From Verrucomicrobiia bacterium (GTDB lineage: Bacteria > Verrucomicrobiota > Verrucomicrobiia > Limisphaerales > JADLHS01): DNA of 64,000 nt. The DNA is taken from the NCBI GenBank assembly GCA_026125285.1, contig JAHCLO010000013.1, forward strand, positions 62,001 through 126,000, written 5' to 3'. Made by a program: the position numbers and the translations under genes. This document shows positions 11,924-62,068 of the stretch, in pieces; the stretch's first letter is position 1; each line of letters starts with the position of its first letter. The notes beneath the pieces were generated by a model. The model was not told the origin of the DNA and did not search any database. It saw nothing but the letters and a program-made list of their open reading frames with translations.

Positions 11924-11997
11924 CGCTTCCAAAATGTCATCCTCAGACGCTCATCGCCTTGAATATCTTGGACCGATCGCAGATCACCAACGGTGAA

Positions 11998-15033: not shown

Positions 15034-15089
15034 AGCCGCACAGTATTTATCAGGAACAACGGTTTTACCTTAAACAGAAAGCCTTGAAT

Positions 15090-15782: not shown

Positions 15783-15804
15783 TGTAGTCTCAATTCCAAT
15801 GACG

Positions 15805-15834
15805 CGCACCGGTCCAAAACCGGTGCGTTTTTTT
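15805..15834 (+). terminator. strong intrinsic terminator after the PEP-CTERM gene
   Basis: A perfect 8-bp stem CGCACCGG / CCGGTGCG with a 7-base loop is followed by seven Ts, 22 bases after the stop codon. Confidence 0.93.
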
Positions 15835-15874
15835 GTACTGGCCGGAGCCGGAAGGAGTCTGCGCCCAGATTCGG

Positions 15875-17323
15875 TCAGGGAATGACCACGGCGCGGAACA
15901 GTTGGTTCGGAGCGTCCCCGCCGTTCAAATTCGTGAAATTGAACAGGCCGTTGACGAGCTGATTTGTCAGTAGCGGGGACCAAACGGTCAGGTTGGTGGA
16001 GGCTTCAATGATGAATCCCGTCGGCGCTAAGCCCGAGAGCTGAAAAGCAAATCCCGATTCACCCAGCCATCGTGGGTTGCCGATTTCCAAGTACGGCAGA
16101 GTGACGTCCGCAGTCCAACCGATAGTCTGGATGAGGGCGTTCGCGGGGTCCGTGCGCACGAACGGAGTTGGATCCATGATCTGCACGCTGACGGCATTGG
16201 TTCCGCTGCGGAGCAATTCCGGAAGGATTTGGAAAGTGTCTCCACTAGCGTCCGGACACGGCACGCCGTTGGTAAACCACTGGATACTTAGGACCTGACC
16301 CGCAGGCTGAAGCACATCCACCTTGAAATCCAACATTTCGCGGCTGGTCACATGAAGATGTGCGGCAACCGGTGAGTGAGCCTCCACGGGGCGCACCACC
16401 CGATAGAATGACAGCACCAGCGCTTCCGTGCAAACCTCACAAAAGCCGACTCCGTTGTTTCCCATGCGACAATTTAGCTTTGGACGGTACCAGCCGGTTT
16501 CATGATAGTGAGCGCCTTCGAACAAACCGACACGATCGGCGAACTGGCCGAGCGGCGGCGTCGGCACCGGGGTATCCGCCGCAATCCAAGCGTTCCATTT
16601 AATCGCAGCACGGTTGGTTTCCCGGGTGGTGTTTGGCTCCTCGATGTCGGGAAAGCCAGGGTAGGCCATTGTATATTCGTCCCCCAGCCCGGCCAGCACG
16701 TGTCCTGACTCATGTACGATGATGTCCGCCATGCTGTTGGGCGAAACTGAACTGATGGCCACGCCGCCGCCGCCATCTGATCCACCCACCGTATGGTCGT
16801 TCACGAGCATCACCGCGAGATGGCAATCCGGCACCAACGCGGCAAGCAATGCCGCCACCCGCCCCTGCCCGTTGCCGTAATCGGGATCAAACTCGTTGGG
16901 CGGGATACTGATGAGATAGTCGGAATAGCCGTACGTGCTGTTGAAGTACGTGTCGCGGAAACCTCCAGCCCCGTTGATGGGATGATCCGAGCCGGACTGC
17001 ACCGACGGTACGGCGATCGCATACGCGTTGAAGTAGGCCTGATACTCGGCGAAAGGTTGACCACTCAAAAGGTGTTGCAGCGCGTTCGTAGCGTGCGACA
17101 GAAAGCTGCCGTATTCATTGGTGCGATAGCCCTCCGCCAAAAAAACCACGTTCACCCGGTTGGAACTCGGCCCATTGATCAGCATGGCTGAAAAATTCGT
17201 CTGACTCCAACCTTCCCCGGGAACAGCGCCAAACCATGCCGCAGCGAGGAGGGCAACGCCCCTTCTCAATCCAATGCCCCGGCTTCTTCGACCAAGGCCA
17301 GCTTGCCGGAGCATTCTCATCAT
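15875..17323 (-). CDS. secreted M64-family metallopeptidase with shared C-terminal tail
   Basis: A 482-residue exported zinc peptidase of the M64 (IgA peptidase) type. A basic/hydrophobic signal segment (RRGVALLAAAWFGAVPGEGWS) precedes the conserved start NRVNVVFLAEGYR. The zinc motif is HESGHVLAGLGDEY: His204, Glu205 and His208, with the downstream Gly-Asp-Glu. AISSVSPNSMADIIVHE before it is also typical. After the catalytic domain comes an Ig-like stretch and the C-terminal tail (FIIEASTNLTVWSPL...LFRAVVIP) shared with seven other proteins here. Its ATG overlaps the stop of the beta-helix gene by four bases (ATGA at 17320-17323), so the two are probably co-translated. The substrate is unknown. 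Confidence 0.85.
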   Translation of the reverse strand: MMRMLRQAGLGRRSRGIGLRRGVALLAAAWFGAVPGEGWSQTNFSAMLINGPSSNRVNVVFLAEGYRTNEYGSFLSHATNALQHLLSGQPFAEYQAYFNAYAIAVPSVQSGSDHPINGAGGFRDTYFNSTYGYSDYLISIPPNEFDPDYGNGQGRVAALLAALVPDCHLAVMLVNDHTVGGSDGGGGVAISSVSPNSMADIIVHESGHVLAGLGDEYTMAYPGFPDIEEPNTTRETNRAAIKWNAWIAADTPVPTPPLGQFADRVGLFEGAHYHETGWYRPKLNCRMGNNGVGFCEVCTEALVLSFYRVVRPVEAHSPVAAHLHVTSREMLDFKVDVLQPAGQVLSIQWFTNGVPCPDASGDTFQILPELLRSGTNAVSVQIMDPTPFVRTDPANALIQTIGWTADVTLPYLEIGNPRWLGESGFAFQLSGLAPTGFIIEASTNLTVWSPLLTNQLVNGLFNFTNLNGGDAPNQLFRAVVIP

Positions 17324-33403: not shown

Positions 33404-36400
33404 ATGCCAGAATCACGTTCCAACGCCGTCATCCGTCTGCGCGGAGTGCGGCACAACAATCTTAAGAACTTCGATCTCGATCTGCCGCTGCACCGGCTCA
33501 TCGTTATCACGGGCTTGAGCGGTTCCGGTAAAAGTTCGCTGGCTTTCGACACACTCTACGCCGAAGGGCAAAGGCGCTACATCGAGACTTTCTCGCCTTA
33601 CGCGCGGCAGTTCTTCGACCGGATGGACAAACCGCAAGTGGACAGCATTGAAGGCATCCCGCCGGCCATCGCCATTGAACAGCGGAACACCGTCCGCACC
33701 ACCCGCTCGACTGTCGGCACGATGACGGAGATTTGCGATCACATGAAAGTGCTCTGGCCGCACCTGGCGCAACTGCACTGTCGCGGCTGCGGCCAACCCG
33801 TGCGGAAGGACTCACCGCAAAGCGTGTGGGGAACCATCCTGAAATCCGAATTCCGAAATTCGAAATCCGAGCTTCTCATCACCTTCGATGTCCCGCTCTC
33901 GGAAAAACTCCCACTGGCCGAATCACTCGCGCTGGTTGCCAAACAGGGCTACCAGCGCCTGTTGCTGAACGGAAACCTCATCCGCCTCGAGGACGCGCTC
34001 AACCATTCCGCACTCCGCTCCCCGTGCTCCATGCTCGCTGTGGTCCAGGATCGCCTCAAGCTCACACCCGCCGCCCGCCCCCGTTTCGTCGAAGCCTGCG
34101 AACAAGCCTACCACTTCGGCAAAGGCAAGCTGGCGATTTGGGAAATCCATCCGCCTTCCTCCATCCTCCATCCTCGCCTGTTCTCCAACCTTCTGCACTG
34201 CGCGCATTGTAACGTCGAATACCCCGACCCCTCCCCTGCCCTGTTCAGCTTCAACCACCCCGCGGGCGCGTGCCCGGCGTGCAAGGGTTTTGGCCGAACC
34301 ATCACCATTGATTACGACCTCGCGCTTCCCGACCGCTCGCTCACCCTGGCGCAAGGCGCGGTGAAACCGTGGCGCACGGGCTTCAGCGCCGAATGCCAGA
34401 GTGATTTGAGGAAGTTCTGCAAAGCCCGCGAAGTCCCCATGGACGTGCCGTTCCGCCAGCTTTCGGCCGAGCACCAGCGCTGGATCATTGAGGGCGACAA
34501 GGATTACGGCATTGATGAAGAGCACGAATGGCCGCGCGCGTGGTATGGCGTGAAGGGCTACTTCCGCTGGCTGGAATCCAAATCCTACAAAATGCATGTC
34601 CGCGTGTTGCTTTCCCGCTACCGTGCCTACGCCAAATGCCCGGATTGCCAGGGGGCGCGGCTCAAACCGGAAGCGATGCTTTACCTGCTGAGGATGGAGG
34701 AGAGTGGTTTGAACAGGGGACGTGACACCGGCGTGCGTCCACCTTTTTCCCGCCTCACCCTCCCCGACTTCTACGCCCTGCCCGTCCGCGACGCGCTCGC
34801 GCTGATTGACTCCTTGGAACACTCCCGGCTTCGGGTTCGCGGCCCTCGTCAGCAGCCCAGTGACCCCATCACTCACGCGTTGTCCGAAGTCCGTGCCCGC
34901 CTCGGCTACCTCGACGAAGTCGGCCTCGGCTACCTCACGCTCGACCGGCCAACGCGCACGTTGAGCGGCGGCGAAACAGAACGCGTCAATCTCACCACCT
35001 GTCTCGGCACGCGGCTGGTAAACACGCTGTTCGTCCTCGACGAACCCAGCGTCGGCCTGCATCCACGCGACACCGATCGCCTGGTGCGCATCCTCGAGAA
35101 ACTCCGCGACACTGGAAACACCGTCGTCGTCGTCGAACACGAGGCCAGCGTCATCCGCGCGGCGGATCAAATCGTGGACATTGGCCCGGGCCACGGTGCG
35201 ACCGGTGGCGAAGTTGTGTTCCAAGGCCCGTTGTCTGAATTGTTGAAATCGCCGCGCTCCCTCACCGGCCAATACCTAAGCGGACGGCAGCGGATTCAAC
35301 TGCCCAAGCGACGGCCCGTAGCCGACGATCTAAGGAGGCGGAATCGCGCAACAACTCAAAGCGAAATCCGCCTCCTCACGGCGGCGGCTACATTGCGCAT
35401 CGAGAATGCCACCCGCCACAATCTGAACAACGTCTCGGTGGCGATCCCGCTGAACCGCCTCGTTGCGATTACCGGCGTCAGCGGATCGGGCAAATCCACA
35501 CTCGTGCGCGACGTGCTCCTGCCCGCCCTGTCCGAACGGCTGAAGGGCGCTACCGTCACACGCCGTCCGACCGACCTGGAGTCTGACGACAGCTCGACCG
35601 ACGAGAATTCCTCACGCCTCACGCATCACCCATCACGCATTACCGGCTACGAATCCCTCGGCCAGGTCGTCCTCGTGGACCAATCCGCCCTCGGCAAGAC
35701 CCCGCGCTCCAATCCCGCCGTTTACATCGGCGCGTTCGACGACATTCGCGAAGTCTTCGCGCAATCCGAAGTCGCGAAACAACGCGGTCTCAACGCCAGC
35801 GCGTTCAGCTTCAACTCCGCCGCAGGTCAGTGCGAAAAGTGCCGCGGTGCCGGGTTCGAAAAGATTGAGATGCAATTCCTCAGCGACATTTTCATCCGCT
35901 GCCCGGACTGCAATGGCCGTCGCTATCGCCAACACATTCTGGAAGTAAAAATAAGTAGCCAGCGAGGTAACGAGGTGGAAGTCACAAAATCCGTCCCAAA
36001 CCGCCTGCTCACGTCGGCGGCTACGATAGAGTGGAGCATCGGCGACCTGCTCGAAGCCACGGTGGACGAGGTGATTGAGTTTCTTTCCGGCTTCACGGAT
36101 TCCAATTCCGCCCTACGCGCCGTCGCCAGCCTGAAACTCTTGCAGGAAGTCGGCCTCGGATACCTGCGTCTCGGCCAGCCCATCAATACCCTCTCCGGCG
36201 GCGAGAGCCAGCGCCTCAAACTCGTGCGCCATTTGGCCGAGGTAACTCAATGCCCTGTAACAGCGGACGTGGGTCCGCTCACATCAAACAGCCGCCCGAG
36301 TCAGAGCCGCCTCACGTCGGCTGCTACATTGTTCTTGTTCGACGAGCCCACCACTGGCCTGCACTTTGACGACGTGCGCGTGTTGCTGCAGGTCTTCCAG

Positions 36401-39400
36401 CGACTCGTGGATGCCGGCCATTCGGTCATTGTCATCGAACACAACCTTGACGTCATCAAATGCGCCGATTGGGTGATTGATCTCGGCCCGGAAGCCGGCG
36501 ATGGCGGCGGAAAGATTGTCGCGTGCGGCACGCCAGAGGAGGTCGCCGCTTGCCCGGCAAGCCACACGGGCAGCTTCTTGCAAGCCGTATTTCGTGATGA
36601 GGAACACAGGAAGAAGGCGGAAGGAAGGAGACCGCCAACGCGCACAAAACCGATTCCGTCTTCCATTCTTCGTTCGCCGTCCGCCATTGCCATAAGCGGC
36701 GCCCGCGAGCATAACCTCAAGAATCTCTCCCTCGAAGTCCCGCGGGACCGGTTCGTCGTCATCACCGGTGTCAGCGGTTCGGGTAAGAGTACGCTCGCGT
36801 TTGATCTGCTGTTCAACGAGGGCCAGCGGCGGTTCTTGGACTCGATGAACCTTTATGCGCGACAGTTCGTGGAGCAAATGGCGCGACCGGACGTAGATTT
36901 GATCACGGGTATTCCACCCACGGTCAGCATCGAGCAACGCACCACGCGCGGCGGTGGCAAAAGCACGGTGGCGACCGTCACCGAGATTTATCACTTCATT
37001 CGTCTGCTCTTTGCGCGACTCGGCACACAGTACTGTCCCGACTGCCAGTTGCCCGTCGAACCCCAGACGCGCGACGAACTCGCCCGACATCTGCAGGCCG
37101 AACTCAAACGCCGGGGCGACTTGCTGCTGCTCGCGCCCGTCGTGAAGAACCGGAAAGGCTTCCATTCGGACGTCGCGGAGTGGGCGTTCAAGAGTGGCTA
37201 CAAAGAAATCCGCGCGGACGGAAAGATGTACGACACCAGCAAGCCGTTCCGGCTCGATCGGTTCAAGGAACATGATGTTGAGATTGTCGTGGGCGTGGCA
37301 CAGTCAGGCAGGGCGCGCAGTCCTCTGCGCGCCGCCACTGCGACGGGAACCGCCGGCGCGCACCGAGTGACGCGCCCTACCAGCCTCACTGAAATCGTGG
37401 ATACAGCCCTCAAACTCGGCAACGGCACGCTCTACGCCCTCGACCATCGCAGGCAACTCTCCGTCCACTCCACCGAACGCGCCTGCCCTGGCTGCGGCAA
37501 ATCTTTCGCCCCGCTCGATCCCAAGAACTTCTCCTACAACTCCGCGCAGGGCTGGTGTCCCAAGTGCCGCGGCTTCGGCGAGCTGTTCTACCTGCCCGAT
37601 GTCGAACGCGGCGCGAATGCCGATTCAATAGAGGAAAGCTGGTGGGGCTGGGCGCAGGAACGCGAGGTTTGTCCCGAGTGCCACGGCGCCCGGCTGAATC
37701 CCGTGGCTCGGGCAGTGCGGCTAAACGCCGGACACACGCCGCGCCCGTCACCAGCTTCGGCTAAAGGAGTCAGAGCCAGACGCGATGCCTGTCCGACGAT
37801 AAACGCCTTCTCCGCGCTGGACGTCGAGGCGGCGCTTGCGTTTGTCCGCCAATTGAAATTCACCGGACGCGCGGCAGACATCGCCCGCGACATCCTCCCG
37901 GAAATTCGCGAGCGCTTGAAGTTCCTCAACGAAGTCGGCCTCGGCTACCTCCAACTTGGACGCGGCATGCCGACGCTTTCGGGGGGGGAAGCCCAGCGTA
38001 TCCGGCTCGCCGCGCAACTGGGTTCGAACTTGAGCGGCGTGCTGTACGTCCTCGACGAACCAACCATCGGCCTGCACGCGCGCGACAATGAACAATTACT
38101 CGACGTGCTCCAGAAACTCCGCCGTCGCGGCAATTCCGTGGTCGTCGTCGAGCACGATGAGGACACGATGCGCCGCGCGGATCACGTCATTGATCTTGGT
38201 CCGGGCGCGGGTGTGCATGGTGGACAGGTGGTGGCCAGCGGCACATTGGCCGAACTGGCCAAGCATCCTGAATCTGTCACCGGTCAGTGCCTCCGGACCG
38301 AAAAGAAATTTCCGGCGCGCGGGGAACGGCGGGTTTCCGCCGTAGCCGCCGAGGTGAGGAGGCGGAAGGTCACGAGCACAAAACCGGCCGACCACGTCCT
38401 CACGTCGGCGGCTACGCACGGACGGCTCACGCTACGAGGCGCGGCATTGAACAACCTCAAGAATCTCACAGTGACTTTTCCTCTGGGCCGGCTTGTGCTT
38501 GTAACGGGCGTGAGCGGTTCGGGCAAGAGCACGTTGGTCCGGGAGTGTTTGTTGCCGGAATTGCAGGCGGCACTCAAGGCGGGGCGGGCGTCCGCGCGAG
38601 CCGCCGCCTCGAAACCACCCCAAGGCTCGCGCGGACGCTCGCTCCACCTTTCCGGCTTTGAATCCTTGAAGGCAGTTTATGAAGTGGACCAATCGCCCAT
38701 CGGGCGGACGCCACGCTCGATTCCCGCGACCTACGTGGGATTCTTCGACGACATCCGCGCCTTGTTCGCGCAAGTGCCGGAAGCGCGGATGCGCGGTTAC
38801 TCTGCCAGCCGGTTTTCCTTCAACAGCGCGCAAGGCCGTTGTCCGGAATGTGAAGGGGCCGGCCAGATCAAACTGGAGATGAACTTCCTGCCGCCGGCCT
38901 TTGTGCGTTGCGAAACCTGCGAGGGAACGCGGTTCAATCGCGAGACACTCGACATCGCCTACGGCGGGAAGAACATCGCGCAGGTGCTGGACCTTTCCGT
39001 GGAGGAAGCCCTCGCGTTCTTTGCCAGCGTGCCGAAGATCAAACGCGCGCTTGAAGCCTTGCACGACACCGGGCTGGATTATCTCAAGCTCGGTCAACAA
39101 AGCCCGACCCTGAGCGGCGGGGAAGCGCAACGCGTGAAACTCGTCACGCATTTGCTGACCGGATTAAAGCCCGCCCCCGCCGCAAGCCTCACGCCGCACG
39201 CCGCACGCAACACCAATCTCTTCATTCTGGAAGAACCCACCATCGGCCTGCATATCGCCGACGTGCGCCGGCTCGTGGAAGTCTTGCAGCGCCTGGTGGA
39301 CGCCGGCCATTCGGTGATTGTGATCGAGCATAACCTGGATTTGATCGCCGAGGCGGATTGGGTGATTGACCTCGGCCCGGAAGGTGGCGAGGGCGGTGGC

Positions 39401-39493
39401 CGGATGGTCGCCGAGGGCACGCCCGAGCAAATCGCGCGCAACCAACACTCGCACACCGGACGCTTCCTGCGCCGGCTGTTGCACCTTCCATGA
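33404..39493 (+). CDS. uvrA: double-length excinuclease ABC subunit A with in-frame repeat inserts
   Basis: DNA-damage recognition ATPase of nucleotide excision repair. The 2029-residue chain is two fused UvrA units with four ABC ATPase modules: Walker A at residues 37-45, about 691, 1122 and 1702; signatures LSGGETERV, LSGGESQRL, LSGGEAQRI and LSGGEAQRV; and DEPT/EEPT Walker B segments. Several zinc modules are present (CPACKGFG, CEKCRGAG, CPECEGAG). Chlamydial UvrA is likewise tandem-duplicated, at roughly 1,800 residues from memory. The excess length here is partly explained by non-homologous inserts coded by palindromic DNA, in linkers and loops: residues about 639-663, 851-874, 952-975, 1302-1326, 1647-1671 and 1729-1745. 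Other inserts are simple-sequence-like (SEFRNSKSELL, THHPSRITG). The frame is open throughout and all catalytic motifs are kept, so it is probably functional. The stop overlaps the Uma2 gene. Confidence 0.95.
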   Translation: MPESRSNAVIRLRGVRHNNLKNFDLDLPLHRLIVITGLSGSGKSSLAFDTLYAEGQRRYIETFSPYARQFFDRMDKPQVDSIEGIPPAIAIEQRNTVRTTRSTVGTMTEICDHMKVLWPHLAQLHCRGCGQPVRKDSPQSVWGTILKSEFRNSKSELLITFDVPLSEKLPLAESLALVAKQGYQRLLLNGNLIRLEDALNHSALRSPCSMLAVVQDRLKLTPAARPRFVEACEQAYHFGKGKLAIWEIHPPSSILHPRLFSNLLHCAHCNVEYPDPSPALFSFNHPAGACPACKGFGRTITIDYDLALPDRSLTLAQGAVKPWRTGFSAECQSDLRKFCKAREVPMDVPFRQLSAEHQRWIIEGDKDYGIDEEHEWPRAWYGVKGYFRWLESKSYKMHVRVLLSRYRAYAKCPDCQGARLKPEAMLYLLRMEESGLNRGRDTGVRPPFSRLTLPDFYALPVRDALALIDSLEHSRLRVRGPRQQPSDPITHALSEVRARLGYLDEVGLGYLTLDRPTRTLSGGETERVNLTTCLGTRLVNTLFVLDEPSVGLHPRDTDRLVRILEKLRDTGNTVVVVEHEASVIRAADQIVDIGPGHGATGGEVVFQGPLSELLKSPRSLTGQYLSGRQRIQLPKRRPVADDLRRRNRATTQSEIRLLTAAATLRIENATRHNLNNVSVAIPLNRLVAITGVSGSGKSTLVRDVLLPALSERLKGATVTRRPTDLESDDSSTDENSSRLTHHPSRITGYESLGQVVLVDQSALGKTPRSNPAVYIGAFDDIREVFAQSEVAKQRGLNASAFSFNSAAGQCEKCRGAGFEKIEMQFLSDIFIRCPDCNGRRYRQHILEVKISSQRGNEVEVTKSVPNRLLTSAATIEWSIGDLLEATVDEVIEFLSGFTDSNSALRAVASLKLLQEVGLGYLRLGQPINTLSGGESQRLKLVRHLAEVTQCPVTADVGPLTSNSRPSQSRLTSAATLFLFDEPTTGLHFDDVRVLLQVFQRLVDAGHSVIVIEHNLDVIKCADWVIDLGPEAGDGGGKIVACGTPEEVAACPASHTGSFLQAVFRDEEHRKKAEGRRPPTRTKPIPSSILRSPSAIAISGAREHNLKNLSLEVPRDRFVVITGVSGSGKSTLAFDLLFNEGQRRFLDSMNLYARQFVEQMARPDVDLITGIPPTVSIEQRTTRGGGKSTVATVTEIYHFIRLLFARLGTQYCPDCQLPVEPQTRDELARHLQAELKRRGDLLLLAPVVKNRKGFHSDVAEWAFKSGYKEIRADGKMYDTSKPFRLDRFKEHDVEIVVGVAQSGRARSPLRAATATGTAGAHRVTRPTSLTEIVDTALKLGNGTLYALDHRRQLSVHSTERACPGCGKSFAPLDPKNFSYNSAQGWCPKCRGFGELFYLPDVERGANADSIEESWWGWAQEREVCPECHGARLNPVARAVRLNAGHTPRPSPASAKGVRARRDACPTINAFSALDVEAALAFVRQLKFTGRAADIARDILPEIRERLKFLNEVGLGYLQLGRGMPTLSGGEAQRIRLAAQLGSNLSGVLYVLDEPTIGLHARDNEQLLDVLQKLRRRGNSVVVVEHDEDTMRRADHVIDLGPGAGVHGGQVVASGTLAELAKHPESVTGQCLRTEKKFPARGERRVSAVAAEVRRRKVTSTKPADHVLTSAATHGRLTLRGAALNNLKNLTVTFPLGRLVLVTGVSGSGKSTLVRECLLPELQAALKAGRASARAAASKPPQGSRGRSLHLSGFESLKAVYEVDQSPIGRTPRSIPATYVGFFDDIRALFAQVPEARMRGYSASRFSFNSAQGRCPECEGAGQIKLEMNFLPPAFVRCETCEGTRFNRETLDIAYGGKNIAQVLDLSVEEALAFFASVPKIKRALEALHDTGLDYLKLGQQSPTLSGGEAQRVKLVTHLLTGLKPAPAASLTPHAARNTNLFILEEPTIGLHIADVRRLVEVLQRLVDAGHSVIVIEHNLDLIAEADWVIDLGPEGGEGGGRMVAEGTPEQIARNQHSHTGRFLRRLLHLP
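35318..35391 (+). repeat. palindromic repeat family A, copy in uvrA (linker between ATPase modules 1 and 2)
   Basis: Two 24-base arms (35318-35341 and 35368-35391) are 19/24 complementary around a 26-base centre. Arm 1 starts GTAGCCGACG; arm 2 ends GGCGGCGGCTAC and is read as LLTAAAT. The element sits just before LRIENATRHNLNN, where the second ATPase module begins. Confidence 0.8.
35955..36024 (+). repeat. palindromic repeat family A, second copy in uvrA
   Basis: Arms 35955-35978 and 36001-36024 are 17/24 complementary. Arm 2 (CCGCCTGCTCACGTCGGCGG...) is read as LLTSAAT. It replaces the short loop after HILEVK and before IGDLLEATVDE in the UvrA fold. Confidence 0.72.
36257..36327 (+). repeat. 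palindromic repeat family A, third copy in uvrA
   Basis: Arms 36257-36280 and 36304-36327 are 19/24 complementary. Arm 2 is read as RLTSAAT. It sits in the loop between the ABC signature helix (LKLVRHLAE) and the Walker B strand (LFLFDEPTTG). Confidence 0.8.
37307..37381 (+). repeat. repeat family B (reverse orientation) inside uvrA
   Basis: A 75-bp element (25 codons) is bounded by an 11-base terminal inverted repeat with one mismatch (GGCAGGGCGCG / CGCGCCCTACC). Its reverse complement, GGTAGGGCGCGTCACTCGGT..., resembles the core of the repeats at 41403-41525 and 47310-47432 (GGTGGGGCGCGTCACTCCGT...). It codes for the non-conserved insert after EIVVGVAQSG and before TSLTEIVDTALKLG. Confidence 0.7.
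38342..38415 (+). repeat. palindromic repeat family A, fourth copy in uvrA
   Basis: Arms 38342-38365 (GTAGCCGCCGAGGTGAGGAG...) and 38392-38415 are 21/24 complementary, the best pair in this gene. Arm 2 is read as VLTSAAT. It sits in the linker before GRLTLRGAALNNLKN, the start of the fourth ATPase module. Confidence 0.85.
38588..38638 (+). repeat. perfect 15-bp inverted repeat inside uvrA
   Basis: GCGTCCGCGCGAGCC (38588-38602) is exactly complementary to GGCTCGCGCGGACGC (38624-38638) around a 21-base centre. It encodes a low-complexity loop (RASARAAASKPPQGSRG) before LHLSGFESLKAVYEVD. Confidence 0.8.
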
Positions 39494-40131: not shown

Positions 40132-41525
<1,394 letters not shown>

Positions 41526-41600: not shown

Positions 41601-42503
41601 TTATGACCGTTCGGCCACCTCCATCGTCAGCGGGGCGGGAATCGCCTCGCCCTGCCGCATTCGCTGCAGCCGTTCCAGTTGGTTCATCGCCCGGAACATT
41701 TGCCGCTCCAGTTTCGTTTCGTAGCGCTGGATTTTCTCCAGCGTCTCCGCCGCGGGCAGCACCGCCGCTGCCTGGCGCGCCTGCTCCTCCTTTGCTTCCC
41801 GCTCCTTGCAATCAGTTTTTGTCCATGAAATTAAGCGCAGTTTCTGGTCGAGGTAAGCCAGGGTCTCCTCCTTCTGTCTGGCGCGCAGGGCCGCGGGCTC
41901 CAGCCCTTCTGGATTCTGCTGCAACTGGGAACGCAGTGTCTCCAGTTCCTTCGTCAGCGTGTTGGGCTTGTCGCCGAAGCGCCGCACGAGCGCTTGGATC
42001 ACGTTCTCCGTCAATTCCCCCTCCCGCTCCACGTCAGACTGAAGGTCTGCCAGCCAGCGCTCAATGATCCCGTTGCCCAAGGCCGAATCCTGCATCAAGG
42101 GAACCGGATCCCCCAGCGCATCCCATTTGCTCCATTGCACGAGGGGATGCGGCGGCCGGTCGCGGTTCCACGCGCCTTCATCCACGCTGAGCGCGATTTC
42201 GCCTGACTCTGCCGTGAGCGCCCGCCGCAAGCGCCAGTGCGCCGTCACGATCTGGTCCACCAGCATCTCCTCCACCGGCCCGACCGGTTGCAGGGATTCC
42301 ACAAACCGCGCGTGCAGGGCGGCGAATTCGCGCGGGTTCTCCCGGATGTGCAAGCCGCGCACGACGACCTCCTGCGAGAGGATGCCATGTTTGACCGCGT
42401 TCATTTTGGCGACCGCCTTGCCGTTGACGGTTCTCGGGCCGGTGGATTTGCCGGCGTTCCGCCGATTGGCGGCCAGTTGTTTCAAGGACATGGTTTTGCG
42501 CAT
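41601..42503 (-). CDS. conserved hypothetical protein with N-terminal NRRNAxKSTGPRT motif
   Basis: 300 residues, highly charged and helical. The N-terminus SLKQLAANRRNAGKSTGPRT followed by NGKAVAKMNAVKHGIL is a pattern I know from many uncharacterised proteins of Acidobacteria, Planctomycetes and Verrucomicrobia, often in accessory regions. No function is established. The rest is predicted helix with long Glu/Gln/Arg-rich stretches (TLEKIQRYETKLERQMFRAM), probably coiled coil. The start is ATG 42503 or Met5. It lies 5 bases downstream of the KTSC gene on the same strand, so they may be cotranscribed. Confidence 0.6.
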   Translation of the reverse strand: MRKTMSLKQLAANRRNAGKSTGPRTVNGKAVAKMNAVKHGILSQEVVVRGLHIRENPREFAALHARFVESLQPVGPVEEMLVDQIVTAHWRLRRALTAESGEIALSVDEGAWNRDRPPHPLVQWSKWDALGDPVPLMQDSALGNGIIERWLADLQSDVEREGELTENVIQALVRRFGDKPNTLTKELETLRSQLQQNPEGLEPAALRARQKEETLAYLDQKLRLISWTKTDCKEREAKEEQARQAAAVLPAAETLEKIQRYETKLERQMFRAMNQLERLQRMRQGEAIPAPLTMEVAERS

Positions 42504-42507
42504 GGGT

Positions 42508-42702
42508 TCAGAGATATCGCCCCCGGATGTTTTGGTTGTAGTACGCGCCCATGGACGCAGCGGCCATCAGGCCCTGGAAGACCCAACGCGGCACACCGGG
42601 ATGCGTATAGACGGTGTCGCGGCTGTGAAACAACACCGCCAGCGTATAGCCGTCGTAGCCGACGGCCCGGATCGCGGATGAGTTGACGGGGATCATGCTC
42701 AT
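42508..42702 (-). CDS. KTSC-domain small protein
   Basis: 64 residues that form a complete KTSC domain: MIPVNSSAIRAVGYDGYTLA, then VLFHSRDTVYTHPGVP, then MAAASMGAYYNQNIRGRYL. The domain is named from its occurrence at the end of some lysyl-tRNA synthetases. Stand-alone copies are common in phages and genomic islands, with unknown role, probably nucleic-acid or protein binding. ATG at 42702; a second Met two codons later is also possible. Confidence 0.82.
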   Translation of the reverse strand: MSMIPVNSSAIRAVGYDGYTLAVLFHSRDTVYTHPGVPRWVFQGLMAAASMGAYYNQNIRGRYL

Positions 42703-42736
42703 GGCGGTGACACTGTAAACGACTCACGAGTTAGTT

Positions 42737-43366
42737 TCATTCCGGGTTGAATTCCGATTTGTTCCGACTTTTTCCGACCGCCCCTCGAAGCGCGATGAAC
42801 CCTCGGCGCCGGGTATCGAAGAGGCGTTTGTAGGCGGCGCGTTGATTCAAGTCATCAAACGCCTTGCACGGATGCCGGTAACCGCCACAGATATTTAGCA
42901 GGGTTGCATCCTTACTGCTCAGTCCGTTTAGTCCCTTCTCATGTGCTGTGTGAACCAGAGCAAGGATGTACGGCAAGACGCCACCGAGCGAGATGGCCTC
43001 GCCGGTGTCTGGCTTGATTTGCGTGAAACTACTGTCGTGGACCCACCCGCAGACAGAGCAGGCGCAGCCTGTGGCACTGGCCATGGCGGCCCCAGCCTCT
43101 TCGACAGCAAAAGCCCGCACCCCACCGATGCTCGCGAGACTGGCAATGATCTGCTGAACCACAGCGGAAGTGTTTTCATCTTCCCCATGCCGGATGGGCA
43201 CGCCGAGGAGGGCACGCACCGAAAGGAGTACCAAATTGCTTTCGCCGCCCTCTGTCTTCCGCTGCTCCGCCGGCGGTTCGGCTGGCGCAGAGGCGGAGGC
43301 TTGCGGGCCGCGCCTGGGGACAGGCGGGCCGAGCAACATCGCTGTTTCAGGTGCGCGTTTCTGCAC
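42737..43366 (-). CDS. hypothetical protein, possibly DNA-island encoded
   Basis: 209 residues with a GTG start at 43366 or ATG at 43339. The first 45 residues are Pro/Ala/Glu-rich and disordered. The remainder looks like a folded helical domain (LVLLSVRALLGVPIRHGEDE, then GEAISLGGVLPYILALVHTA, then KRLFDTRRRGFIAL). Four cysteines occur in the middle and end (CACSVC, NICGGYRHPC), which could form a metal site. No family is recognised. It is 34 bases from the KTSC gene on the same strand. Upstream, bases 43367-43607 contain CTGCAG/GCTGCAAC-type short repeats and no gene. Confidence 0.5.
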   Translation of the reverse strand: MQKRAPETAMLLGPPVPRRGPQASASAPAEPPAEQRKTEGGESNLVLLSVRALLGVPIRHGEDENTSAVVQQIIASLASIGGVRAFAVEEAGAAMASATGCACSVCGWVHDSSFTQIKPDTGEAISLGGVLPYILALVHTAHEKGLNGLSSKDATLLNICGGYRHPCKAFDDLNQRAAYKRLFDTRRRGFIALRGAVGKSRNKSEFNPE

Positions 43367-43607
43367 GCCCCCACTCTACCAAGTCGGGTAGTGACGATTC
43401 TGCGGAATGCATATCATACTGAAGTCAAGCGTGATAGCCGGTTATTGTGATTTATGACATTCTTCTGCAGTGCCGCTGCAACGGTTCTGCAGGACTGTTG
43501 CAGCCGTTTGGCCCGAAAACCACGTTGGGGCGTGTCAATAACAATCTTTAAGTAATCCGCCAAAAACTCTCACTGATGAAGGAAGCAAACCAGCCCGATC
43601 CGTTGTG

Positions 43608-44141
43608 TCAAATGCCGGCGCGCATAAAACGCCCTTCCCAAGCCCGCTTCGTGACTTCCCACCGGCACCGAGACTTGCGCCGCCCCCGCAGCTTACCTTG
43701 CCGGATAGCCTTCACGATGAGCGATGGGTGGCATGGGACCAGGCGCGCGAGTTCCCCCGGCGTTAGGGCCTCGCGATTCGCAGGCCACGAAAAGCGAGCA
43801 CGGTCAAGACGGGCAAAAGGGAGCGCGAACATTCGCGTCCCCGCCAAGCAACGTCGCGCGTAAGTCTTGTGGCTATACGGTACCGCGCGTTTTGCCAGCC
43901 ACGCCACGAAACGATCCACTTCCACCTTGTTGAGTTGGTGGCGCGGTCCATCCGCACGGAGATACCCTGTCTTGATCCAGTTCCGCAGCGGCTGCGTTGA
44001 GACACCTAACATTTTAGCGGTCTGTCGCAGGCTGAAAAAACCCCGCGTGGCCCGGTCCAGCGCGGCACGAATCTCGTCTGACCGGCAGGCCACCTTCCAA
44101 GCGACCGGTCCGCGCTTCCAAGGCAGACGAGGTTTGCCCAT
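43608..44141 (-). CDS. protein with two HTH_17/MerR-like helix-turn-helix motifs
   Basis: 177 residues. The first HTH is at about 34-60 (FFSLRQTAKMLGVSTQPLRN, then WIKTGYLRADGPRHQL), the classical excisionase/MerR-type DNA-binding fold. A second similar segment is at about 126-165 (LTPGELARLVPCHPSLIVKA, then IRQGKLRGRRKSRCRW). Between them is a basic linker. It starts 9 bases after the stop of the restriction-methylation gene on the same strand, so it probably belongs to that transcript and may be its controller or an island excisionase-type factor. The basic C-terminus supports DNA binding. Confidence 0.72.
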   Translation of the reverse strand: MGKPRLPWKRGPVAWKVACRSDEIRAALDRATRGFFSLRQTAKMLGVSTQPLRNWIKTGYLRADGPRHQLNKVEVDRFVAWLAKRAVPYSHKTYARRCLAGTRMFALPFARLDRARFSWPANREALTPGELARLVPCHPSLIVKAIRQGKLRGRRKSRCRWEVTKRAWEGRFMRAGI

Positions 44142-44150
44142 GCTCTGACT

Positions 44151-47147
44151 TCAAATTGTTGGCCGGATACAATCCGTCGTCAGCAACCGCTGTGGTTCGG
44201 GATAACCGGGCGGAACGCCGGGGGCGGTGACGGGTTCGCCGCGCTCGATCTTCGCGGCGACTGCGAGGTTCAGGGCGAGGAGTTGGGCGAGCAAATCCTG
44301 TTTGGCGCTGAAACCGTAGGCGGCGAGGACGGCAGCGTCCAGGGCGGCGTGGGCGTCCCGCAACGGATTCGCGCCGGGTAATTCGAGCGTGCGATAGAGG
44401 GCGCGCAGGCCGCCTTTCAAATTCCGCAACGCCTCGGCGCGCACATGGCGCACTTCCCGCGCGGCGGCGGCCACGGCGTCAATCTTCGCGATTGTAGCAG
44501 CGGACGTGAGTCCGCTCTGATTTTTCGGGGAAGAAGTTTGAGCCGACTCACGTCGGCTGCTACCAAGCTCAAATTGCGGCCACGGGAACGTGTCGAAGAC
44601 GGTGTCGGAAGTGTAGCGAAAATCTGATTTTAACTTGGAACACTTCTCGATGAACCAAGCCCAGTGGGCACTCGATTGAAGCACTCCAAAACTGTAGTCA
44701 TCATCAAAGGCGAAAACAGAAAGCGAGCCGTCGGGATGAACTTCTCGTGAAACGAATGCAAACGTTGGCCGTTTGGTTACGCGAGGGCAAACAATGTAAC
44801 GCGAACGCGAAAGAACCGCAGCCATCGTGCCCGGCATCCAATCGCGAAACTGCCACCACCGTTCCGCCATCCGTGTCCAGCGTGTGCTTTCCTTTCCCGT
44901 TGTGATTTTCTCCTTCTCGGCTTTCGCAAGCACGTCAGGCATCACCTTCGTTTTCAAGATTTCAAATGCCGCCGAGTATTTCGCGGCGTCGAGCATGTTT
45001 CGCTGGCCGAAATCAATTACCCACTGAGTGGGTGTGCCGACCGTAACGAGATCCAGCCCGATCAAATAAGGAAAGAGAACGTCCCGGTGGTCAGGTAACT
45101 TCCGCAACAGGCTGTCAGCTTCCTCGGGGCTTAGCTTGAATCCTTCGTGAACCGGATTCTGCCCTTGGAATACTCGCTTCGGTTCTGCATTTGCGGCTAG
45201 CACGACTGCCCCACCGACATCGGTTTCATCTGAAAGCGCTGCGTTGATAAATTCGCACTCTCGGAAGTCCAACTCGTATTGGGGTGCAGCCGAATTGCTG
45301 GCTTTACGAAGTTTCTTCGCCGTATGTGCTGGCGGCACTTTGAACCAAAGCTTGCGGGCCTTCGGCAACAAAGCGATGTCTTGCGTCTTTATCCAATTTG
45401 CAATCGAGACGTGAACCTTCGCTTCGCCTGACCACGGTTGATTGTCCACGGCTTCCGTAATCGTTCCGTCCTTTACGACGTGGTCGAGCCCGCCGACGCG
45501 AGATTCGTTGTTGCGAATGTTCTGTGTGCCGACGAGCCCAGCACGGCCAGCGACCGGATCGTCAGCCGTGCAAGCGGGCAAATGGTCGGCGGCTTTGCGA
45601 AACCAATACACGCAGAAGTCTGCCATCTTTGGCACGTCGGGAAAAGCAGCGTGAACTTTCCGCACGTATTCGTAGCCGTGTTCCTTCGCGAAGTAGCGTG
45701 AGCCAAGGAACGGCGGGTTGCCGATAATGACATCGGCCTTGGGCCATTGGGCCGGCAGACCTTCGGGCGTGAGCAGCGCGTCGGCGGCGATGAAATTATT
45801 ATCGAGATTGTCGAGCGGCAGCGGTGGTTCGGTGATGTGCAGTTCGTCAATCGCCAGCTTGCGGCCAATCATCATCGTCACCTTGGCGATCTCGACGGCG
45901 AAGGGCAGGATGTCCAGCCCGTAAAAGTTTTGCGCGCTCAGGTAGCTGAAACGAATCTGGTCGGGCGTGGCGTGTTTGGGAAATTCCGTGTCAATGCGCT
46001 CGTAGATGCGCGCCTCCAGCCGTTTCAGCTCGCGATAGGCGATGTAAAGGAAGTTGCCCGAGCCGCAGGCGGGATCGAGCACGCGGAAGGTGTGCATCCG
46101 GTCGCGGAGTTCGCGCAGGCGCTTGAACGTCTTGGCGCTTTCAATCTGCTCCGACCACGGATCGGTGATCGTCGGCTTGACGATCTTCATGATGTCGGAC
46201 GGGTGCGTGAAGTGCGCGCCGAACGCGTGGCGTTCCTCGTCGTCCATCGAATGTTGGAAGAGCGTGCCGAAGATTTCCGGCTGGACCTTGTTCCACTTGA
46301 ACTTTGCCGCTTCGCGCAACAGGACGAGTTCACGGTCCTGAATCTCGATTTGAGCGGGATTGGCGAACAGGCCGCCGTTGAAATAGGGGACTTCCTTGTA
46401 GCGTCCGCCCTTGGCCGCGTGGCGTTGGTTCATGGCGCGGAACAGGCCGCCAAGCAATTCATAGCTGTCTGCCGGAGTGGTGCATTCGTCGAGCAGGTTG
46501 GTGACGAAATGTTTCGGCAGCAGGTCAATGTCCTCGGCAAAGAGGGCCACGAGCATTTGCAGGATGAAACGCTGGGCTTCCGCGCGTTCGACCTGCGGCT
46601 TGCGATCTTTGCGCAACATCCATTTGAAACAATCCGCCAGCTTGTCGGCAGCCTGGGTGGTGACTTCAACGCGGTCGTGATCAAAATGCGGTTTGGGATT
46701 GCCCGGCGCGAGGAATTCGAGCGGTCCCCAGCGCTCGGGCAAATCCTTGAGTGCGAGTGTGTCCTTGGGCGTGTCGAGGTCGGTGTCGAAATCATAGACG
46801 CGGAACTCGTCGAAGTTACAGAGCACGACGTAGCGCGGGCGATTGGGCACGAGGCGCGTCCAGTAGTCGAAAGCCTGGCGATAATGTCTCTGGAGATTCT
46901 CGCCGCGCTTCTTCATTTCGATGAGCACGATGGGTTTCCAGACGTAATCGGCGAACGCCGTACCGCCGCCGTCTTCATCGGCTTTGCGGATGCGGAATTC
47001 GGTGTGCCCGCCGACGTCGAGACAGCCGGGCTGGCCGAAGGCTTGAAAGAGGCGATCCAGGAAGATTTGCGCCTGGCCCTTTTCGTCGCCGGTGATGTGG
47101 TTGGAACACCAACTGATGAATTCGGCGAGTTTTTCGCGGCCCGGCAT
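44151..47147 (-). CDS. MmeI-like type IIG/IIL restriction-methylation enzyme
   Basis: A single-chain R-M enzyme of 998 residues. The N-terminal PD-(D/E)xK nuclease is seen in FADYVWKPIVLIEMKKRG (about 63-81). The adenine methyltransferase has motif I DPACGSGNFLYIAY (about 357) and motif IV NPPFLGSRYF (about 475). GTLFQHSMDDEERHAFGAHF before motif I and NIRNNESRVGGLDHVV after it are as in MmeI relatives. The C-terminal half is the target-recognition region, then a helical tail. ATG 47147 is preferred; a TTG at 47189 would add 14 residues. A palindromic repeat of family A (44494-44563) is inserted in frame near residues 862-884 (SSRRESAQTSS, SGLTSAATI). It would methylate and cut a specific site; activity is unknown. 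Confidence 0.87.
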   Translation of the reverse strand: MPGREKLAEFISWCSNHITGDEKGQAQIFLDRLFQAFGQPGCLDVGGHTEFRIRKADEDGGGTAFADYVWKPIVLIEMKKRGENLQRHYRQAFDYWTRLVPNRPRYVVLCNFDEFRVYDFDTDLDTPKDTLALKDLPERWGPLEFLAPGNPKPHFDHDRVEVTTQAADKLADCFKWMLRKDRKPQVERAEAQRFILQMLVALFAEDIDLLPKHFVTNLLDECTTPADSYELLGGLFRAMNQRHAAKGGRYKEVPYFNGGLFANPAQIEIQDRELVLLREAAKFKWNKVQPEIFGTLFQHSMDDEERHAFGAHFTHPSDIMKIVKPTITDPWSEQIESAKTFKRLRELRDRMHTFRVLDPACGSGNFLYIAYRELKRLEARIYERIDTEFPKHATPDQIRFSYLSAQNFYGLDILPFAVEIAKVTMMIGRKLAIDELHITEPPLPLDNLDNNFIAADALLTPEGLPAQWPKADVIIGNPPFLGSRYFAKEHGYEYVRKVHAAFPDVPKMADFCVYWFRKAADHLPACTADDPVAGRAGLVGTQNIRNNESRVGGLDHVVKDGTITEAVDNQPWSGEAKVHVSIANWIKTQDIALLPKARKLWFKVPPAHTAKKLRKASNSAAPQYELDFRECEFINAALSDETDVGGAVVLAANAEPKRVFQGQNPVHEGFKLSPEEADSLLRKLPDHRDVLFPYLIGLDLVTVGTPTQWVIDFGQRNMLDAAKYSAAFEILKTKVMPDVLAKAEKEKITTGKESTRWTRMAERWWQFRDWMPGTMAAVLSRSRYIVCPRVTKRPTFAFVSREVHPDGSLSVFAFDDDYSFGVLQSSAHWAWFIEKCSKLKSDFRYTSDTVFDTFPWPQFELGSSRRESAQTSSPKNQSGLTSAATIAKIDAVAAAAREVRHVRAEALRNLKGGLRALYRTLELPGANPLRDAHAALDAAVLAAYGFSAKQDLLAQLLALNLAVAAKIERGEPVTAPGVPPGYPEPQRLLTTDCIRPTI
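44494..44563 (-). repeat. palindromic repeat family A inside the restriction-methylation gene
   Basis: Arms 44494-44517 and 44540-44563 are 22/24 complementary around a 22-base centre. In coding orientation the distal arm reads GLTSAATI, the same frame as in the uvrA copies. It lies between the target-recognition region and the C-terminal helical tail. Confidence 0.88.
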
Positions 47148-47309: not shown

Positions 47310-47432
47310 CGCGCTGCCCAAAGCGCGGCGGTAAGTGGTGGGGCGCGTCACTCCGTGCGCGCCGAGGCTCGCAGCGGACTGCGATCCCTACCGGCAGATT
47401 CCAAACCCCGGAAGTCAGGCGACTGGCTTCCG
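47310..47432 (+). repeat. repeat family B, copy 2
   Basis: A gap-free 123-bp match to 41403-41525 with seven mismatches. It includes CGCGCTGCCCAAAGCGCGGC, equivalent to the last enolase codons, although no eno gene is here. The final hairpin retains a GNRA loop (GCGA). Confidence 0.9.
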
Positions 47433-47525: not shown

Positions 47526-50399
47526 TCACCGCAACATCAACCGATAGAAACGAAGGGATTGGCCCGGAGTGTCGTCGTGGAACCCAGCCGTTCCATCGGC
47601 GCTGATCTCGTTGGTCGCAGTGGTCGTCCAATTCGTCAAATTGGTGCTCACTTGCAGGCAACATTCCTGACCCGAAATACCGCAGGCCAGAATGTCCACG
47701 CCGCCACCTGGCGACGCGCTGGCCTTCGCGGTCAGCCAGTACTCGTACGCGCCGATGTCGGCGGCCGCACCGTACGGGCGAGGAACACCACGTTGATCGG
47801 TGGGCGGGGCAGCAGCGGAATCGCCAGCATCAATCGCGGGACTGCCGGGTAGCAGGGACATTGTGAGTGTCGGACCGCCATTGTTGGCGAGAGGACCCAG
47901 TTTGGGATCGGTGTGGTTGAGACTGCCGAGGTTGGTGAACGTGCAACTGTCATCGGAACTGAGGTTGTGGCCTGCATCCGAGATGAAGCCGGTACTATTG
48001 GTCGGAATGTTGTTCGCAAGCAGCGTATTCTTAAGCACTCCGCCTAGAGTTGCGATGCTACCCAAGGCCAGGCCCTTCGTGCCATCGTCGCCACTCCGGC
48101 CAGGGTGAGCTCCCTCACCTGCCGGACCGCCCAAGCCGCCGGGACCGCCACTGCCAGAGTTAAAAGCCACCGTGCAATTGGTCATGCTTAGCCGGCTGGC
48201 GTCGTCCCAAACGGCGCCGACAGCGGAACCTCCGAAGCCTCCATCGCCGCCTTGTCCACCGTTGTAGAGGGGCGCGCCGCTCGGACCGCCCGGAGCGCCG
48301 CTTCCTCCCTTTCCGCCAAGACAATAGTTCGAAACGATGGTGCAATTGGCCCACGCAACCGCTCCTTCGTTGCCCAGCGCGCTGCCTCGGGCTGAACCCC
48401 CCGCGCCGCCAATTCCACCGGTGCCGCCAGAGATGCCACCACAAAATCCACCTTGTCCACCCTGTCCGCCTTCCGCGATATTTCCGACAACGGCACTGCC
48501 TTCAATTATTAAGACGCCTGCGTTGCAGATAGCTCCTCCGCGGGCTGCGCCTCCGATTCCGCCCGGAACGCCTTGAGGTGTATAATAACCCGCTTCATCC
48601 GGGCCGGCACCTCCGCCAAGTCCGCCCGTGGCGGAATTCTCCACAAACGTGCAGGTACTTGCTTGCAGTGTGCCAGTGCTGTAAACGGCCCCGCCATAAC
48701 CCAACCCGCCACTGGTGCCGGGGTATGGTTCGGGCAGGCCAGTGCTGCCGCCGGCCCCGCCGACGACCGAGTTCCGCCGGAAAGTGCAAGCGAATGCCTT
48801 CAGGTTGCCACTGCTGTAAATCGCGCCGCCGTAAGCGTCCCTTCCAGGTTCCGGAGGAACAACCCCAAACCGGCCTCCACTACCTTGCACGCTGTTTTCG
48901 GAGAACAGACAATCGAACAGGTTCACCTGGCCGCCCTCATTCCAAATCGCAGCTCCGCCATTGGTGCTGAATCCGTTGGCAACGGTCAGGTTCATCAGCG
49001 TGAGGCTCGCGTTGCTATGCACATAAAACGCTCGAACCGTCTCCGCTCCGCTGATCGTCACCTGATGGCCGCCGCCATCCAGCACGCTGTTGTTCGTAAT
49101 CGCAATGGTGTTGGTCAGGGCGATCGTGCCATCGCAGGTGAAGGTCACCTGGTAGGATGCAGCGAGTGCCTCCCGCAGCGATTGCTCGTCACAACTCGTC
49201 ACCAGCACCAGCCCCCATTGAGATGATGAAGTGTCATCCTGGAAAGCCGCAAAGATAACACCGCAATTCACCAGGATGGAGTTTCTGCCGACCACGTAGA
49301 TATCGCGGCCACGACCGGCTCTGCCATGGTTGCCGTTCTCGCCAAGGACACCTACTCCGCCCGCCCCGCCGCTGCCGGGAAAGTTACCTCTGACTGTGCA
49401 GTTGGTCAGCGCCAAACCACCAGAACTAAAGACGCCGCCTCCGTTACCGCCATTTCCGCCATCGCCACCGTCAAGGCTGTCCACACCGCCGTGGCCACCG
49501 TCACCCGCAACGTTGTCGCTGATCGTGGACCTGATCGCCGCAAAAATGCCGCTGTTCCAGATGCCGCCACCGGCGCCACCATGTCCACCTCTCGCTTCCC
49601 GGGGCGTATCGCCGCCGCTACCTGCGACGTTGCCACTGACCATGGAGTGGTCAAGCCAGAGGGTTCCCGCGTTATAGATGCCGCCGCCCTCACCGCCGGC
49701 ACCACTTATCGGGCTGAAGGTCAACGCGCCACTCACGCCGCCATTGCCGGCGGCGTTGCCACTGACGACGCAGTTGCTCAGGTACATCGTTCCAATATTG
49801 TAAATGGCTCCTCCTGATCCGCCGTTTCCGCCAGCGGTGATAACCATATAGACGTCATTCCCAATGCCATGCCCACCCTGTCCAGCGGCATTGGAGATCA
49901 CCCGACAATCGTTCAAGGTCAACGTACCCGCGGTGTAGATCGCCCCGCCCGCCTGGCCTGGCCCACCTGGGGTTCCCTGGCCTTCAACCACTGTGCCGAC
50001 GACGCCATTGGAAGCCTTGCCATCGCGCAGATTCAGCCCGGAAAGGGAGGCGACGACATTGGATTGCACCTTGAGCAGCCGGCTGGCGTGATTGCCACTG
50101 ATCGTCAGATTGCCAGCCTCCGGGCCGATGATGTTCAGACTCTTAACCAACAGCAGTTCGCCACTGGTCAGCGTGATGGTGCCCGTGACACCGAATATCA
50201 GTGTATCCCCCGAAGCAGCGTCGGTGATCATTTGACGCAACGAACCGGGGCCGTTATCGGCCAAGGAAGTCACGACATTCGTGGCGGTCCACGCTTTGAC
50301 TGGCCACAAGCCCAGCAACAAAAGGGCCCACCCTATCTGCAGAAAAGAGGATCCTCCATGCCCGCCAGCATGCGCTCGAGTTTGATTCGTTGTTTTCAT
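47526..50399 (-). CDS. secreted glycine-rich beta-helix protein (choice-of-anchor Q type) with shared tail
   Basis: 957 residues. The signal segment SFLQIGWALLLLGLWPVKAW ends near TAT. It is followed by the CSLREA-like VVTSLADNGPGSLRQMITDA, then polymorphic-outer-membrane-like beta-helix turns (GGAIYNIGTMYLSNCVVSGN and variants) with long Gly-rich loops to about residue 830. The choice-of-anchor Q segment GSPAIDAGD...TDQRGVPRPYG...DIGAYEY follows at about 860-895, then the tail CCLQVSTNLTNWTT...RFYRLMLR. Probably exported to the surface; no catalytic residues seen. It lies 15 bases after the GloVer gene and shares its ribosome-binding leader. Confidence 0.88.
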   Translation of the reverse strand: MKTTNQTRAHAGGHGGSSFLQIGWALLLLGLWPVKAWTATNVVTSLADNGPGSLRQMITDAASGDTLIFGVTGTITLTSGELLLVKSLNIIGPEAGNLTISGNHASRLLKVQSNVVASLSGLNLRDGKASNGVVGTVVEGQGTPGGPGQAGGAIYTAGTLTLNDCRVISNAAGQGGHGIGNDVYMVITAGGNGGSGGAIYNIGTMYLSNCVVSGNAAGNGGVSGALTFSPISGAGGEGGGIYNAGTLWLDHSMVSGNVAGSGGDTPREARGGHGGAGGGIWNSGIFAAIRSTISDNVAGDGGHGGVDSLDGGDGGNGGNGGGVFSSGGLALTNCTVRGNFPGSGGAGGVGVLGENGNHGRAGRGRDIYVVGRNSILVNCGVIFAAFQDDTSSSQWGLVLVTSCDEQSLREALAASYQVTFTCDGTIALTNTIAITNNSVLDGGGHQVTISGAETVRAFYVHSNASLTLMNLTVANGFSTNGGAAIWNEGGQVNLFDCLFSENSVQGSGGRFGVVPPEPGRDAYGGAIYSSGNLKAFACTFRRNSVVGGAGGSTGLPEPYPGTSGGLGYGGAVYSTGTLQASTCTFVENSATGGLGGGAGPDEAGYYTPQGVPGGIGGAARGGAICNAGVLIIEGSAVVGNIAEGGQGGQGGFCGGISGGTGGIGGAGGSARGSALGNEGAVAWANCTIVSNYCLGGKGGSGAPGGPSGAPLYNGGQGGDGGFGGSAVGAVWDDASRLSMTNCTVAFNSGSGGPGGLGGPAGEGAHPGRSGDDGTKGLALGSIATLGGVLKNTLLANNIPTNSTGFISDAGHNLSSDDSCTFTNLGSLNHTDPKLGPLANNGGPTLTMSLLPGSPAIDAGDSAAAPPTDQRGVPRPYGAAADIGAYEYWLTAKASASPGGGVDILACGISGQECCLQVSTNLTNWTTTATNEISADGTAGFHDDTPGQSLRFYRLMLR

Positions 50400-59753: not shown

Positions 59754-59867
59754 ATGAAAACCCTCGACCGCCAAAAGCTGGATGTCGTCAACAAGACGCG
59801 GAGCAACATCTTCGGTTGGCGCGGCCAGTTCACGCCGGAGTTCGTCGCCATTTACCTCAATGCCTGA
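59754..59867 (+). pseudogene. N-terminal fragment of a DNA-methylase-like gene, left copy
   Basis: 37 codons read MKTLDRQKLDVVNKTRSNIF, then GWRGQFTPEFVAIYLNA, and stop. This looks like the first residues of a DNA (cytosine-5 or adenine) methylase whose body is missing. A diverged copy of the same start begins at 61871, on the other side of the restriction-modification genes. Confidence 0.6.
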
Positions 59868-61870: not shown

Positions 61871-62068
61871 ATGAAACCCCTCGACCGCCAAAAGCTGGAT
61901 GTTGACCACCAGATGCGGAGCAACCCGTTCGGCCGGCGCGATCCGCTCACGGAGGATTCTAAACCCATCGAATTCGAGGGGTTTGGCAGTTGTGGGGAAG
62001 TCGGCGAGTTGGAAAGCTTGCCAGCGCGGCCAGTTCAAGTCGGGTTTCAGCCCCATAACACGCCATGA
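61871..62068 (+). pseudogene. diverged right copy of the methylase-like N-terminal fragment
   Basis: It begins MKPLDRQKLDVDHQMRSNPF, matching 59754-59867 in the first 25 or so codons at DNA level (ATGAAAcCCCTCGACCGCCA), then diverges. Near 62020 a piece GCCAGCGCGGCCAGTTCAAG again resembles the left copy. It overlaps doxX by four bases and is unlikely to be functional. Confidence 0.5.

Follow-up and report, generated by a model that had tools for sequence, protein, structure and literature searches.

Among the classical attachment sites are gene 3′ ends, and prophage e14 carries a replacement 3′ end of icd. Insertion with long target duplication has reportedly been described by Nobusato et al. 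in 2000 (Gene 259:99) and by Furuta et al. in 2010 (NAR gkp1226). According to the available parts of four papers, restriction-modification genes insert with long and variable target duplications of about 100 bp (PMC1643837; PMC3031569; PMC3874152; PMC4978471), and in the available part of a fifth, the recA genomic island of Vibrio cholerae has an essential gene as its target, carries an integrase and occupies a fixed site (PMC4405046). Here, we analyzed a block of 5.8 kb behind eno, the enolase gene, in a stretch of 64,000 nucleotides (hereafter, the window) from contig JAHCLO010000013.1 of the Verrucomicrobiia bacterium assembly GCA_026125285.1 (positions 62,001 to 126,000 of the forward strand). 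The block carries the gene for a predicted MmeI-like restriction-modification enzyme and is bounded by two copies of the eno 3′ end. In our view, it is probably a restriction-modification island that was inserted at the 3′ end of eno, and we favour homologous recombination as the way of integration.

A preliminary description of the window had reported two direct repeats of 123 bp, 94% identical, at the ends of a 5.8-kb block, and had counted them as copies of a repeat family (family B). The repeats themselves are as described: they stand in direct orientation, with their starts 5907 bp apart, and are 94.3% identical over 123 bp; ungapped extension of the pair gives 135 bp at 91%. The family did not survive a search of the 7.16-Mb assembly, in which full-length matches were found at only these two places (copy 2, E = 2.8e-49), the remaining 40 matches covering only about 24–40 bp in the middle of the repeat and representing a short repeat common in the genome. 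With only two full copies, a dispersed repeat family was ruled out. Copy 1 begins 25 nucleotides upstream of the end of eno and comprises the last seven codons, the stop codon, the 3′ untranslated region and a hairpin; copy 2 repeats this sequence but lacks the remainder of eno, and the lower stem of its hairpin is broken. Since the repeat is the eno 3′ end, its second copy is a displaced gene end and not a member of a family of intergenic repeats; copy 2 is thus a decaying, displaced enolase 3′ end. Both the length of the repeat, which at 123 bp is on the order of 100 bp, and its derivation from the target, copy 1 starting inside eno, are those of insertion with long target duplication, of which the island is a variant.

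Displaced eno ends recur in the order to which this bacterium belongs. A single DNA test, for displaced eno pieces within 10 kb of eno, was applied at all loci, and 8 of the 42 loci from the order had such pieces, in every case downstream of the gene. Three of the eight (in genomes G193, G095 and G062) entered the set on the strength of earlier search results; among the first 30 loci, for which eno score was the sole criterion, five had displaced ends. The same test detected none at 80 eno loci of a public collection, 71 of them from more distant bacteria (604 kb of downstream DNA) and nine from nearer ones (53 kb, mostly on short contigs). Empty and filled sites are found together in genus g47, where in G120, G173 and G053 eno is directly followed by a member of a family of 164–182-aa genes, and where in G193 an 861-aa gene and an eno end stand between eno and the family gene. 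Three eno pieces lie behind eno in G010, at 2.3, 6.2 and 8.5 kb and with identities of 94, 85 and 70%, as if newer insertions had pushed older ends outward. Units are also common to lineages: a pgi-like gene with an eno end occurs in both G002 and G003, and a protease-like gene with an eno end in both G004 and G095, which belong to different families. In G062, from another family than the genome studied here, eno is followed by a 202-aa gene and a KTSC-like one, then by further genes, by an N-terminal remnant of an MmeI gene and by a displaced eno end of 55 bp (90.9%), which lies 4 bp beyond the called start of the remnant, with a near-identical terminator further on. The displaced end in the window, the arrangement in G062 and the recurrence at eno and at other genes (below) lend good support to the part of the preliminary description that saw a defence island inserted beside eno and marked by direct repeats. 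Its interpretation as a whole is supported only in part; excision through the repeats, which it had also raised, would be possible. In eno itself, identity between families at four-fold sites reaches up to 100% over codons 300–372 in 18 genomes of the order, against about 55% elsewhere; the block of high identity ends near codon 372–376, where many displaced pieces start, and may reflect a constraint at the nucleotide level.

Such duplications are found at other genes as well. The genome studied here (G000; 1,666,808 bases with 1122 called genes of at least 120 aa) was surveyed for local direct copies of gene parts within 15 kb, and paralogue-like rows were removed by rule (C-terminal downstream, 7; C-terminal upstream, 5; N-terminal upstream, 6; N-terminal downstream, 4; internal, 46). 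All 18 C-terminal pieces that were left lay downstream of the host gene and all 10 N-terminal pieces lay upstream of it, along with eight internal rows. Inspection by eye marked six of the 28 end rows as doubtful, being likely paralogues or antisense calls (C1:185526, C23:304766, C34:7596, C12:309977, C23:331163 and C23:57295); 15 C-terminal downstream and 7 N-terminal upstream rows stand without them. In 500 kb of Escherichia coli K-12, no row was left by the same rule after the removal of four. A strict 3′ bias, first suggested by the eno pieces, all of which are C-terminal, was ruled out by the 10 N-terminal upstream rows; because N-terminal pieces are found upstream too, the common feature is an intact host gene and not an exclusive involvement of 3′ ends. 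Besides eno, the hosts include genes that, by their sequence, look like argG, mutS, asd, nuoL, sucC and purN. The cargo often consists of predicted toxin-antitoxin or restriction genes, family matches supporting a PemK-like toxin, PIN-domain proteins with ribbon-helix-helix partners, HicA, a zeta-toxin-like protein, and Gp49 (HigB-like), McrBC, ORF6N and AAA_21 proteins. Serial copies of gene ends were seen for argG and mutS. On contig C34 (locus L149, 10540–16302), argG is followed by genes for an ORF6N protein, an AAA_21 ATPase, a small protein and another ORF6N protein, with a truncated argG 3′ end behind each. Several argG pieces start at an identical short sequence in G000 and in G036, which belongs to a different family. 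In both genomes, a closely similar gene end stands before one of the pieces; in G000 it is that of an ORF6N gene. Elsewhere in the window, an 86-bp direct repeat (80%; 59754–59839 and 61871–61956, 2.1 kb apart) starts with ATG and may be another 5′-end repeat or a related gene pair.

To separate a copy of the resident gene from a foreign allele, the substitutions in the displaced ends are informative, since a copy made at insertion and then left to decay is expected to change in a manner largely blind to the code. Displaced ends and resident genes differed mostly at synonymous sites: for pieces of eno, argG, purN, MmeI and a 990-aa gene, the ratio of nonsynonymous to synonymous substitution rates (dN/dS) was 0.06–0.37, apart from a single value of 0.85, and the pooled ratio of nonsynonymous to synonymous differences per site (pN/pS) for displaced ends in G000 was 0.23 after the six doubtful rows were dropped. 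Many of the dS values (0.45–0.6) resemble those obtained when genomes of the order are compared with one another (0.49–0.63). When changes were polarized by the state that most other genomes have, the displaced branch received 47 synonymous and 46 nonsynonymous changes and the resident one 40 and 9, respectively, a pattern that fits a partly constrained history followed by decay. For eight eno pieces, the resident gene was available for comparison, and in four of them (G036, G003, the second copy of G010, and G095) the nearest relative was the eno of another genome. Taken together, these comparisons suggest, for several displaced ends, an origin as alleles from a different lineage. Integration by homologous recombination with DNA from relatives is favoured because the substitution patterns at other loci speak against simple copying, and because of the nearest relatives and the units common to lineages. 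A ComEC-type uptake gene was present in all five genomes searched; as most bacteria have such a gene too, this says little about uptake.

The five genes of the block are all open on the minus strand (Table 1), in agreement with the preliminary description. By its family matches, the 1012-aa product is a predicted type IIL restriction-modification enzyme of the MmeI kind: MmeI_N, MmeI_hel, MmeI_Mtase and MmeI_TRD are over their cut-offs, PADLOC returns REase_MTase_IIG at full length (1079.7 bits), and the single chain has an N-terminal nuclease, a spacer, a methyltransferase, a target-recognition and a C-terminal region in this order. Domain order and family matches are thus those of MmeI-like type IIL enzymes, from which the protein differs in that its C-terminal domain match (MmeI_C, 20.4 bits) is below the curated cut-off of 27. 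No integrase or transposase was found among the five island proteins with Pfam and PHROG; Pfam gave no serine recombinase among the five either, the contig not having been searched with that family, and none of the 27 matches to PF00589 (tyrosine recombinase) in G000 falls on the island contig (C5). A composite transposon bounded by insertion sequences and a prophage were ruled out, the ends being eno 3′ sequence and no such proteins being found among the five. The G+C content of the island (59.7%, against 59.8% for the window) is uninformative as to foreign origin.

Table 1. Features of the eno locus (positions in the window)
Feature	Position	Strand	Evidence
eno, complete enolase, host gene of the insertion	40135..41427	+	430-aa open reading frame; TIGR01060 over cut-off
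Repeat copy 1: final 25 nucleotides of eno including stop, 3′ untranslated region, intrinsic-terminator-like hairpin	41403..41525	+	
300-aa protein with NRRNA motif	41601..42503	-	No family in Pfam or PHROG at E 0.1
KTSC-domain protein, 64 aa	42508..42702	-	PF13619, E 1.7e-15
209-aa protein	42737..43366	-	No Pfam match; kept beside helix-turn-helix and KTSC genes in G062 and G087
Helix-turn-helix protein, 177 aa, HTH_17, excisionase-like	43608..44141	-	PF12728, E 1.6e-9; phrog_66, E 1.3e-7
MmeI-like type IIL restriction-modification enzyme (predicted), 1012 aa	44151..47189	-	Pfam and PADLOC
Repeat copy 2: displaced, truncated eno 3′ end, terminator damaged	47310..47432	+	
957-aa glycine-rich repeat protein (beta-helix-like in the preliminary description), right neighbour outside the island	47526..50399	-	Open reading frame; no Pfam match

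The HTH_17 protein was found in 7 of 196 genomes. In G062 and G087, relatives of it stand together with relatives of the 209-aa and KTSC proteins in the same order; the set is therefore module-like, possibly a defence or regulatory module. In both genomes (loci L262 and L263) it stands away from eno, and in G087 it adjoins a large methyltransferase-like gene. At a transporter-like gene of G005, direct repeats of 204 bp (93%) flank an island with MmeI and KTSC genes, and the contig edge is where the second repeat ends. A second, decayed MmeI-like gene of G000 lies on contig C78 (L113, 5307–9147) as N- and C-terminal pieces with other genes between them. Upstream of eno in the window, 33404–39493 is a single open reading frame of 2029 aa with internal repeats in four places, presumably two UvrA proteins fused in one chain.

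Integration by homologous recombination, a step to which, taken alone, we would give about an even chance, can be pictured as follows. The incoming DNA, a gene end with neighbouring cargo, would arrive as a circle or as an end-joined fragment, and recombination with the resident gene end would add the cargo and leave both gene ends in place, so that eno stays complete on the left and copy 2, a second but truncated eno 3′ end, stands on the right. The direct repeats formed in this way could let RecA excise the cargo with a gene end as a circle, which could then enter any homologous gene end, and an addictive cargo, such as restriction-modification or toxin-antitoxin genes, would hold the island in place. 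Several observations weigh against this account. The coding part of the repeat pair in the window amounts to seven codons with one synonymous and no nonsynonymous change, which is too short to separate a foreign allele from a copy, and four of the eight eno pieces are closest to their own resident gene, as expected of a copy. In several families, displaced eno pieces have their left ends clustered at nucleotides 1127–1155 of eno, which, with the shared start of the argG pieces, hints at a specific site. In the sister species G001, whose enolase is 96% identical at the protein level, an MmeI-like gene (82% protein identity) lies behind eno with no eno-derived repeat; the link between gene order and repeats is therefore not a strict one. 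The preliminary description had named the same gene order in relatives lacking the repeats as evidence against its reading; G001 fits this as regards the position of the MmeI-like gene. Between that gene (10852–13881 of locus L077) and eno, G001 has three truncated MmeI 3′ ends in series (pieces at 14883–16520), and the restriction gene thus hosts such insertions too. Lastly, a search with the right-flank proteins found the beta-helix gene behind eno at none of 40 other loci. The relatives with eno directly joined to that gene, for which the preliminary description had proposed to look, were therefore not among them, and an empty site of this particular island was not seen.

Insertion with long target duplication in its original sense would begin with a break or staggered cut at the end of eno, repaired with capture of the cargo, so that about 100 bp of target is doubled and the right copy decays neutrally. 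We regard this as rather unlikely, even though the structure is identical to the cases of restriction genes in Helicobacter and other genomes as the available parts of their descriptions present them, the two copies in the window are 94% alike in coding and noncoding parts, the displaced end of G193 is nearest to its own eno (92%), and the gene-preserving directions of the survey (18 of 18 and 10 of 10) are expected equally. It is at odds with the near-equal numbers of synonymous and nonsynonymous changes on the displaced branch (47:46) and with an overall dN/dS well below what neutral decay would give, with the eno pieces (4 of 8) for which the own gene is not the nearest, and with the identical units in different families.

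The clustered left ends in several families and the argG start sequence common to G000 and G036 would be natural for a site-specific integrative element that brings a replacement 3′ end of its target, its recombinase acting in trans or having been lost. We consider such an element improbable: no PF00589 match was found on C1, C5 or C34 of G000 or on the eno contigs of G002, G003, G004, G010 and G036, further left ends lie at nucleotides 916, 930, 948, 1090, 1109, 1239 and 1269 of eno, N-terminal pieces occur too, and the cargo has no gene in common. An ordinary tandem duplication of the eno end and its neighbours followed by loss would leave direct repeats, and an artefact is conceivable in a 79-contig assembly; the flanking genes on the two sides are unrelated, however, G193 compared with G053, G120 and G173 has new cargo at an old junction, and independent genomes show the identical structure, all of which makes this last account very improbable indeed.

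More broadly, and only tentatively, the islands might be integrase-free gene cassettes, in which cargo, often toxin-antitoxin or restriction genes, bounded by copies of one housekeeping gene end would move between species as circles by homologous recombination, entering where the intact gene ends, swapping that end at each entry and pushing older ends outward, with the enolase and argininosuccinate synthase genes as docking sites across families of the order. If true, this would explain how genes for restriction and for toxin-antitoxin pairs come to stand next to essential genes with no integration enzymes of their own, truncated gene ends ordered by age would be a readable trail of past insertions, and the mechanism of insertion with long target duplication would become directly testable by comparing the two gene ends at a fresh insertion. 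Defence islands that are missed by integrase-based searches could also be revealed by gene-end duplications.

In the open-licence literature, we found no report of eno as an integration site, nor of this pattern in Verrucomicrobiota. What is new here is that insertions recur at the same genes in different families, that toxin-antitoxin genes are among the cargo, that gene ends stand in series and that some of these ends look foreign. Like prophage e14 and, in the available part of its description, the recA island of V. cholerae, the eno island leaves an essential target functional, with a divergent piece or copy beside the insert; those elements have an integrase and a fixed site, whereas here the contig is without a tyrosine-recombinase match and the lengths of the pieces vary. 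With insertion with long target duplication, as far as the accessible parts of those papers describe it, the island shares a restriction-modification unit between direct target repeats of about 100 bp, without insertion sequence or integrase. It differs in that it belongs to another phylum, that the repeats are ends of housekeeping genes and are reused at the same gene, that many toxin-antitoxin genes are among the cargo, and that several of the ends are like foreign alleles.

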